Source of the DNA: a virus
DNA length: 33,718 bases
Strand: one strand, 5' to 3'
Virus record (IMG/VR): IMGVR_UViG_3300025890_000067
Coordinates: 1-33,718 of that record
A program made the position numbers and the translations under genes. Every line of letters begins with the position of its first letter. Positions within the stretch are counted from its first letter, which is position 1. The notes below the pieces were generated by a model. That model was not told the origin of the DNA and ran no database searches. It worked only from the letters and a program-made list of their open reading frames with translations. Positions 31,448-33,700 of this stretch are shown here, piece after piece.

Positions 31448-33040
31448 TTAGTATCCAAATGTTGTGTCTTGTGCTTGAAAGCCCTGATTTGGTTTGTCAG
31501 GCGTGAAATCCCATATACTTCTACTACGGGGTCTAGTCATAACGCCGTAACGTAGGGCATCATATAGGTGGTCTTCCGCTTTAGTATCTACATCCTCTGG
31601 GTTTTTCTTATCTAGAGGTATAATAGGTATTTGAGCTAAAGTGTTTGTACAGTTACTCATAAAAGCGAGTCTGGGCTTCTCAGTAAACTCATCTACCTGC
31701 AGACGCCTGTGTATTTCGTTCTTACCTGCTACACGAGAGCCTCTAGATCTATCAGAAGGACGCCAACGGCAACCCTTCATGTTCATCTGTTCAGCCAGTG
31801 ATGGCCCAGTATCACCACGGTTATGCCATAAACTAGAATCCAGAACACCATATCGCATACCACCATCTTTATATTCCGCTTCCAGTATCATATCAGCTAA
31901 ATCAGAAGCTGTAACTTTAGAACAATAAAGCTCCCTGTAGACGATAAGCTGTTCGTCGGGAGCGACAGTAAACCATAAAACTCCTGTATAACTACCGTAG
32001 CCGTAGTCGCAAGCTCTAAACTTAACCCAGTTGTCTGGTATTTCAAAAGGGTCAATGACATGAATGGATCTGTTAAACTCTGGGAAAGCTGCTCCTTCAT
32101 TGACATCCCAATTACCTTCTAATAGTTGTTTTCTTTGATGTTCTGGCAAAGACAAAAGCATAGCTTCGTAGTCACCAGTATCAGCTAAGTATGGGTTGTC
32201 AAACAGACTAGCAGGTATAAACCTACGCTTAAACAGAGGTTGACCCTCTTTACTGTGACCTTTAGGGAACGTAATAGTATCCCCTGTTTCTATGTTAGTT
32301 GCCCAGAACGCTTTGTTAGAAGGTGCAGGGTCAATAAACATCTTTTTAACCCAACTATGACCACTACCACCTGGGTTTGTAGTAGCACGAATATACAAAC
32401 CTAAGTCTGTACTATGAGCAGACCTCAAGCGACTTCGCATATAATCGAACGCATAAGGGGTAGGCCACTGCGTTAGCTCATCAAAGCCTATCCAGTTAAA
32501 CGCCTGACCTTGGTAACGAGTAACGTCCATATCTTTATCAAGATACGACATCCAGAGCCGACCACCTTTCGGAGTAGTCCACTGACTTTTACGCTCAGAC
32601 CACTTAATGCCCGGAACAGCTTTAGGGTAAAGCTCTTGGCTTTTTTGAATAAGCTCACGTAATTCCTCCGTAGTATGTCTTACAAGTAACCCACTAAAGT
32701 TTGGGTCATTTAATCCGTGTAAAGGATCAGCAAGCATTGCGTAACTCTTGCCGCCACCTGCTGCACCACCATACAGTACCTCACGCTCAGATGCGCTTAG
32801 AAAGTCTGTCTGAGGGCCGGGATTAGGCTTAAATACTACATCCTGTGCCGCCTCAACGTCAAACTCTGCAGGGGCTACCTGTGCAGGTACAGTTTCTTTT
32901 GGAGTGACAACTACAGTCTCACTCTTCTGAGTACGCTCCGATACAGCCTTTTTCGAGCCTCTCGATTTCGGATAACGCCGTTTCGAGCCGCTTGGCAAGG
33001 TTCCGTTTAATTGTAGCAGCTTTTTTACGTCTTCGCTCAA
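31448..33040 (-). CDS. terL: Terminase large subunit (TTG start)
   Basis: The DNA-packaging motor. ATPase motifs: Walker A GGAAGGGKS (91-99), Walker B NWIGFDE (Asp187, Glu188) and the TTNPGG coupling motif (220-225). Nuclease motifs: Asp345 in ACDYGYG, Asp401 in VLDSS, and Asp490/Asp494 in KAEDHLYDAL, which cut the concatemer. The first ATG in frame is in the Walker A region, so the start must be another codon. TTG 33040 gives 530 residues with a basic, disordered 70-residue lead; its ribosome-binding site (AGAG, eight bases upstream) is weak. The 5' end overlaps the preceding helix-turn-helix gene by 122 bases in a different frame. The exact start is the uncertain part; the function is not. 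Confidence 0.9.
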   Translation of the reverse strand: MSEDVKKLLQLNGTLPSGSKRRYPKSRGSKKAVSERTQKSETVVVTPKETVPAQVAPAEFDVEAAQDVVFKPNPGPQTDFLSASEREVLYGGAAGGGKSYAMLADPLHGLNDPNFSGLLVRHTTEELRELIQKSQELYPKAVPGIKWSERKSQWTTPKGGRLWMSYLDKDMDVTRYQGQAFNWIGFDELTQWPTPYAFDYMRSRLRSAHSTDLGLYIRATTNPGGSGHSWVKKMFIDPAPSNKAFWATNIETGDTITFPKGHSKEGQPLFKRRFIPASLFDNPYLADTGDYEAMLLSLPEHQRKQLLEGNWDVNEGAAFPEFNRSIHVIDPFEIPDNWVKFRACDYGYGSYTGVLWFTVAPDEQLIVYRELYCSKVTASDLADMILEAEYKDGGMRYGVLDSSLWHNRGDTGPSLAEQMNMKGCRWRPSDRSRGSRVAGKNEIHRRLQVDEFTEKPRLAFMSNCTNTLAQIPIIPLDKKNPEDVDTKAEDHLYDALRYGVMTRPRSRSIWDFTPDKPNQGFQAQDTTFGY

Positions 33041-33335
33041 TATTTATTCTCTGTCTAAGACCTGCATGTGATATGCTGCGTCCAGTTTGTTTTGTGAGCC
33101 AATTAGCTACATCTCTGTAACTGTACTGTTGAAGATGCCGCTTTGCAAGCTCTAAGGCCTCTAACTCAAGAGGTACAGGCTGTAACAAGTTTTCATTGTC
33201 AGGGTGTATCTCATAACCAAAGGGCGGCTTCTTAGATAGTCTGGCTATAACGTGCCACTCTTTCTCTTTGCCGCGTTTTGGTTTAGGTAGCTCCCAATAC
33301 TCTAAGTCTCTACTTATGTGCTTTGGTCTGACTAT
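32919..33335 (-). CDS. Helix-turn-helix protein between terminase genes (ATA start proposed)
   Basis: This frame codes 138 residues from an ATA at 33335 to TGA at 32919. Nothing between the ATA and a TTG at 33188 is a usual start, yet that part looks coding: RDLEYWELPKPKRGKEKEWHVIARLSKKPPFGYEIHPDN (basic/aromatic, no stop, typical phage protein composition). The ATA overlaps the stop of the small terminase (AATAG) and has AGAAGG nine bases upstream; the TTG has no ribosome-binding site. Residues ~72-98 (YSYRDVANWLTKQTGRSISHAGLRQRI) form a helix-turn-helix like those of resolvases or terminase small subunits, followed by a basic helix (~99-130). It may act in DNA recognition during packaging. 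The true start could be the TTG (89 aa). Confidence 0.6.
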   Translation of the reverse strand: MVRPKHISRDLEYWELPKPKRGKEKEWHVIARLSKKPPFGYEIHPDNENLLQPVPLELEALELAKRHLQQYSYRDVANWLTKQTGRSISHAGLRQRINIERRRKKAATIKRNLAKRLETALSEIERLEKGCIGAYSEE

Positions 33336-33700
33336 TCGTTAGTACCTTCTTTTGGCGGTAGATAAAAGACGCCACCTGTTGAGGTAACATCAACCTTATC
33401 TACTTTACCAAGTCCAGCACGATCAAGCAAGTCTTTAGCGGCACTCATCTTATCTTTTATACCAAGCTCTGTAGGGTCAGACAAAGCCTGTACCATTGCC
33501 ATTGCAGCTTTAGGCGCTGTACGGGCGAAATAAGATCTTGTAGCTTCTCCAATTTCATCTTTAAGTGACTCCACTATAATACGAGTTGGTGTGCCGTTAC
33601 TGTAACCTGCCAACTTCTTGGCAAGCACAACATCACCACCAGCATCATCGAAGAGTACTTCTAGAAACTTTTGTTGGTTTTCTGTGAGGTTTCTTGCCAT
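33332..33700 (-). CDS. terS: Terminase small subunit
   Basis: A 122-residue protein opening the packaging cassette. Residues ~5-50 (LTENQQKFLEVLFDDAGGDVVLAKKLAGYS, IIVESLKDEIGEATR) form a helical DNA-binding lead of the small terminase type. The centre is a helical oligomerisation part (PKAAMAMVQALSDPTELGIKDKMSAAKDLLDRAGLGK), and the end is a short beta tail (DKVDVTSTGGVFYLPPKEGTNE). The DPTELGIKDKMxAAKxLLDRAGL series is one I know from small terminases of podoviruses and marine phages. It would bind the packaging site and load the large subunit. AGGA lies nine bases before the ATG, and the stop overlaps the ATA of the next frame. The promoter of the operon is outside the window. Confidence 0.8.
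   Translation of the reverse strand: MARNLTENQQKFLEVLFDDAGGDVVLAKKLAGYSNGTPTRIIVESLKDEIGEATRSYFARTAPKAAMAMVQALSDPTELGIKDKMSAAKDLLDRAGLGKVDKVDVTSTGGVFYLPPKEGTNE
33345..33350 (-). promoter_or_regulatory. Ribosome-binding site pointing to ATA start
   Basis: AGAAGG on the minus strand, inside the end of terS, is nine bases upstream of the ATA at 33335 and of no other usable start in that frame. It is the main sequence argument that translation of the helix-turn-helix frame begins at the terS stop. Confidence 0.45.

Follow-up and report, generated by a model that had tools for sequence, protein, structure and literature searches.

Coupling of genes through overlapping stop and start codons is common, and the NUGA overlaps are its commonest arrangement (PMC12548453; PMC6728339). 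Natural AUA starts have also been described: in S. aureus they are used by infC, ccpN and, in some strains, citZ, and ccpN has a conserved AUA in B. subtilis too. Output from AUA in S. aureus reporters is about 10% of that from AUG, rising to at most 30% when ccpN is assayed in rich medium (PMC13009471).

The locus described here, between the two terminase genes of a marine phage, combines features of both. Like the NUGA (−4 nt) pairs, it has the −4 spacing of start and stop, a Shine–Dalgarno (SD) sequence inside the upstream gene, and genes that belong to one complex; it differs in that those pairs have an NUG start and a TGA stop, whereas here the proposed start is AUA, the overlap is AUAA or AUAG, and the upstream stop is TAA or TAG. 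With infC and ccpN it would share a natural AUA start, with a clear SD and conservation of the AUA across divergent homologues, but those are Firmicutes host genes with extended SDs, while here the SD seems moderate and the AUA overlaps the stop of terS, to which the gene is likely to be coupled. A third comparison is orfB of IS911, which has an AUU start coupled to orfA in the −1 frame, together with a real frameshift product. The present gene would resemble it in its non-AUG start, its place in a compact mobile element and its coupling to an upstream gene in the −1 frame, but would differ in using AUA rather than AUU and in having no such frameshift product.

Gene Order and Features of the Terminase Region

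The window (the whole stretch of 33,718 nt that was analysed) is the record of a 33.7-kb virus, an HMO-2011-type marine podovirus, and its kin are the Roseobacter phages CRP-603, CRP-2 and CRP-207 and the Puniceispirillum phage HMO-2011. Its TerS is 81% identical to that of CRP-207. The features of the region are given in Table 1. All its other main genes begin with ATG, save one that has GTG and terL, which has TTG.

Read on the minus strand, terS ends in AAA GAA GGT ACT AAC GAA TAG. The gene that follows, ahead of terL, is read in frame −1 with respect to terS (TAA CGA ATA GTC AGA CCA AAG), and the junction reads AAAGAAGG TACTAACGA ATA GTC AGA. From the ATA, 138 codons are open to a TGA at 32919–32921. 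A sequence-only reading of this DNA had described the frame, the order TAA-CGA-ATA, the overlap of the ATA with the terS stop and an AGAAGG 9 nt upstream, and all of these are present at the positions it gave. It had also stated that no ATG, GTG or TTG precedes the TTG at codon 50, and that this TTG has no ribosome-binding site; the first point holds in the sequence, and the second agrees with a computed anti-SD pairing of only −1.3 kcal/mol. The corresponding value for the AGAAGG ahead of the ATA is −6.7 kcal/mol, inside the range of the window's ATG genes.

The UUG start of terL lies inside the AUA-started gene and produces an overlap of 122 nt. Of the relatives, 101 had a recognisable motif at the terL site, and each of these has the UUG (101/101). 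In the GenBank records of CRP-603 and CRP-207, the terL start is placed far downstream.

Table 1. Positions of the features discussed, in the window unless another locus is named.
Feature	Position	Strand	Remarks
terS, small terminase subunit	33332..33700	−	122 aa, ATG start; PHROG 2538 terminase small subunit, E 7.7e-6
Shine–Dalgarno-like AGAAGG, within terS	33345..33350	−	9 nt upstream of ATA
In-frame TAA just 5′ of ATA	33339..33341	−	restricts start to CGA, ATA or later codons
terS Asn codon AAC	33338..33340	−	AAC in 114/114 ATA-class sequences
CGA codon between TAA and ATA	33336..33338	−	
Proposed AUA start codon, overlaps terS stop (AUAG)	33333..33335	−	invariant, 114 distinct sequences, three clades
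terS stop codon TAG	33332..33334	−	
AUA-started gene, predicted 138-aa helix-turn-helix packaging protein	32919..33335 (stop included)	−	conserved family
TTG, codon 50, first ordinary in-frame start triplet	33186..33188	−	judged non-start
Predicted resolvase-type helix-turn-helix core, residues 55–95	33051..33173	−	AlphaFold2, Foldseek, TerL homology (CRP-3, CRP-235)
terL, large terminase subunit	31448..33040	−	UUG start within upstream gene; PHROG 979, E 2.6e-57
HTH module–TerL, CRP-235	L574 1553–2748		
HTH module–TerL, CRP-3	L575 1562–2751		
HTH module–TerL, Rhizobium phage RHph_I3_11	L576 1133–1816		

Start Codons of Homologous Genes

Seven scans of viral contigs, together with nine phage records, gave 558 usable loci with 376 distinct junctions. 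With two exceptions, these junctions carry an ordinary start no more than 9 nt from the terS stop, or else an ATA at −1. One exception is L335, in which assignment of terS failed; the other, L031, has a one-base indel downstream of the ATA. L031 belongs to the window's clade, and its frame is broken by a one-base insertion in the A run after the ATA (near position 2365), either a read error or decay.

The ordinary starts of relatives are varied in both codon and position (ATG at −5, −1, +2, +4, +5 and +9; GTG at −5, +5 and +9; TTG at +3). L032, L033, L034 and L297 use a TTG immediately after the terS stop, despite an out-of-frame AUG 8 nt upstream of that TTG. No homologue with an ordinary start begins near residue 50. 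The alignment of homologues that the sequence-only reading had called for places their N-termini near residue 1; in it, W14 is nearly invariant and P17, P38, G40 and Y41 are invariant, all upstream of codon 50. From these starts near residue 1 and the invariant residues before codon 50, the gene between the two terminase genes is real and full length.

Within the family, a distantly related freshwater clade (L499 and relatives, L499–L521; 20 distinct sequences) has GAATGA at the junction, with an ATG exactly at the position of the ATA. This is the ordinary ATGA overlap, and it is one transition away from the ATA/TAA form.

Contigs of bacterial genomes gave only four matches, in two marine MAGs. 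These (L566–L569) lie on two contigs of identical lengths (62,825 and 55,371 bp) in MAGs labelled Flavobacteriales TMED123 and Neomarinimicrobiota MED589. As contigs of the same length appear in two differently labelled MAGs, they are probably phage contigs that were binned into bacterial MAGs.

Conservation of the AUA Junction

An ordinary start at the end of terS is absent in 114 of the 376 distinct junctions, and every one of these 114 has ATA at −1, i.e., one base before the terS stop (TAG or TAA). With repeats of the same contig counted, this ATA class amounts to 211 loci. No member has an ordinary in-frame start near the terS stop, so that the NUG by which NUGA pairs are recognised is lacking throughout. 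AGAAGG is found exactly 9 nt upstream of the ATA in 114/114, and its computed anti-SD pairing ranges from −5.3 to −11.1 kcal/mol across the class.

The class falls into three well-supported clades, those of the window (19 sequences) and of CRP-207 (58), and a third (37), across which the ATA is conserved down to about 60% amino acid identity. They are separated by users of TTG, GTG and ATG, and the tree requires at least three changes. CRP-207, a cultured and fully sequenced Roseobacter phage, carries the same arrangement. Being found in all 114 homologues without another start, including CRP-207, the arrangement exceeds what chance would give. A simple history, with one ATG-to-ATA change at the same site, is unsupported, the nearest ATG users starting at −5, +5 and +9; against its rejection stands the freshwater clade, which does have ATG at the ATA site.

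In the GenBank record of CRP-207, codons 2–86 of the gene are unannotated and its last third is given as a 52-aa remnant (gp62). The unannotated stretch in this record (L084, MZ892987, positions 1993–2249) is 257 nt long and falls exactly at the first codons of the AUA gene.

Constraint on the Junction and the Coding Sequence

The ATA and the last codon of terS share a base, the first of the ATA being the wobble position of that codon. All 114 sequences have A here, even L164 and L166, whose TerS ends in Gln rather than Glu. By itself this invariance is only moderately informative, several other Glu, Lys and Gln wobble columns also being unchanged, and the reading frame of terS partly dictates the first two bases of the ATA. 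A G at this wobble, which would give GTA in the same phase, occurs only in relatives with ATG or GTG at +5, where the last terS codon is GAG except in one freshwater relative with GAT.

Stronger constraint is seen when the junction codons are taken together. Four two-fold codons (AAA, GAA, AAC, GAA) show zero synonymous changes in the CRP-207 clade and in the third clade, where the remaining conserved two-fold codons average 3.5 and 2.9 such changes (P = 0.001 and 0.004, respectively). The codons of the SD site (AAA GAA) are among those with zero synonymous change. The Asn codon of terS is never AAT, which would create an out-of-frame AUG just after the SD; the AUG that AAT would create is the actual start of the class with ATG at −5.

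Within the ATA clades, residues 2–49 have pN/pS values of 0.15–0.25, with pS up to 0.79. Judged by these ratios, codons 2–49 are under purifying selection, in agreement with the earlier view of them as genuine coding sequence.

The ATGA form is never seen in the 114, yet TGA is usable as a stop in these phages, as the middle gene itself ends in TGA in 104/114. This absence would fit selection for a weak start, but it is not proof. A TGA stop of terS, which would turn the ATA into an AUG, is also absent in marine relatives where it would be immaterial (0/153); because avoidance of TGA is therefore not specific to ATA users, it was dropped as proof of such selection.

The Encoded Protein and Its Relationship to TerL

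No family could be assigned reliably to the 138-aa protein from Pfam, PHROGs or NCBIfam, Pfam showed no recombinase match, and a sequence search of the PDB returned nothing. In the AlphaFold2 model (pLDDT 80), a disordered N-terminal arm and two short strands are followed by a helix-turn-helix (HTH) and a long C-terminal helix reaching residue 129. Foldseek found close viral homologues of this model and weak matches to the DNA-binding domains of resolvases and serine integrases (viral proteins named as resolvases, E 0.013 and 0.08; serine integrases in the PDB, E about 1). A match to the G20c TerS was weak (E 2.6), and a separate terS precedes the gene. By its model, the protein is predicted to be a resolvase-type HTH module. 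The layout is similar to that of serine recombinases and resolvases (PFGY...HTH), but the 138-aa protein is without the catalytic resolvase domain and lies in a packaging operon.

Roseobacter phages CRP-3 and CRP-235 carry the same module in the corresponding position downstream of terS, where it is joined in frame to TerL as its N-terminal part (hhalign E 3.8e-12 and 6.8e-10). The ATPase part of these fused proteins is homologous to the window's TerL. They differ from the present case in being one fused polypeptide started from an ATG, as against a separate, AUA-started gene. In Rhizobium phage RHph_I3_11, a separate frame of 231 codons runs from the module into a TerL-like start. Because the module is fused to TerL elsewhere, the middle gene is likely to have a role in DNA packaging, and homology suggests that it most likely encodes a DNA-binding module that is a partner of TerL.

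Proposed Initiation at the AUA and Alternative Explanations

The reading that we consider likely is that the middle gene starts at the AUA of the AUAR overlap, by a restart coupled to terS, and that it yields a low output of an HTH partner of TerL. The overlap of the AUA with the terS stop, as AUAG or AUAA, would be a variant of the common four-base NUGA overlap. Ribosomes terminating terS would be held by the AGAAGG 9 nt upstream, and a fraction of them would restart at the AUA using the initiator tRNA, with fMet as the first residue. The outcome would be a small, TerS-coupled amount of the HTH protein, acting with TerL in packaging. AUA gives little product in most assays, which counts against this proposal. 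No conserved RNA structure was found at the junction. A special tRNA was considered and set aside, as neither the window nor the searched 50 kb of CRP-207 contains a tRNA gene.

A true start at some other weak in-frame codon (the CGA, a later ATA or CTG, or the ATA at codon 30) is very unlikely. In the window, codon 7 is also ATA, and codon 30 has a good SD with a computed pairing of −8.2 kcal/mol; however, invariance across the three clades belongs to the ATA at −1, set 9 nt from AGAAGG, while the codon 7 ATA and the CTG of some members are not shared from clade to clade, and later starts such as codon 30 would lose the conserved W14 and P17. Slightly less probable still is a −1 shift near the terS stop, which would produce a TerS–HTH fusion with no new start at the AUA. 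The gene of the ATA class does lie in the −1 frame relative to terS, and SD-like sequences 9–14 nt upstream can stimulate −1 shifts in bacteria. The window for such a shift is, however, tiny, the −1 frame being closed by TAA two codons before the ATA in clade A and by TGA three codons before it in members of the L121 type. Nor is AAC GAA TAR slippery: CGA is where the Glu tRNA would need to pair again, and AAC is preceded by a variable base. The nearby upstream in-frame stop and the lack of a slippery site make frameshifting unlikely, and relatives have free-standing ATG, GTG or TTG starts in other frames.

Production of a truncated protein only, from the codon-50 TTG in the window or from the ATG annotated for gp62 in CRP-207, is highly improbable. 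Such a start was chosen by the automatic annotation of CRP-207, but it is at odds with the purifying selection on residues 2–49 and with homologues whose ordinary starts all lie near residue 1; the SD pairing of the codon-50 TTG is almost nil, and initiation there would remove the invariant P17, P38, G40 and Y41. The sequence-only reading had allowed for a read error or a base change that destroyed a former ATG. One metagenomic contig by itself could not have ruled out error, but the ATA is present in 114 distinct sequences from many metagenomes and in the complete genome of a cultured phage; the frame, moreover, is unbroken and evolves under purifying selection. Since three clades and the cultured phage all conserve the ATA, a read error or a recently destroyed ATG is excluded, and the likelihood of an error, or of a gene decaying in one phage, is negligible.

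That reading had also offered an AUA start coupled to terS. Of this, the AUA over the terS stop emerges as the best start of the gene; that ribosomes use it, and that they do so by reinitiation, we infer from the conserved arrangement of the junction.

Implications for Phage Annotation and Packaging

The sequence-only reading had regarded an AUA start with reinitiation control as novel. AUA starts are known from infC, ccpN and citZ of S. aureus, and coupling through overlaps is common; the novelty lies in bringing the two together, as an AUAR overlap retained in the packaging operon of a phage. A search of the open literature, outside which most subscription papers lie, found no report of a conserved phage AUA start or of an AUAR overlap.

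The gene finders Prodigal and GeneMark consider only ATG, GTG and TTG as starts, so that AUA-started genes are lost or shortened in annotation, as in CRP-207. Both programs were used on these phages (PMC9038755).

A putative natural AUA start in three lineages of abundant marine phages, and in a cultured phage–host pair (CRP-207 and its host FZCC0040), makes AUA initiation and its coupling directly testable. More tentatively, selection may maintain the AUA for its very weakness as a start, coupled to TerS and setting the ratio of TerS, HTH partner and TerL. Because IF3 screens against AUA, packaging output could possibly follow the initiation-factor state of the host. If this tentative view is true, AUAR overlaps would be a general but overlooked class of phage starts, one missed by gene finders.
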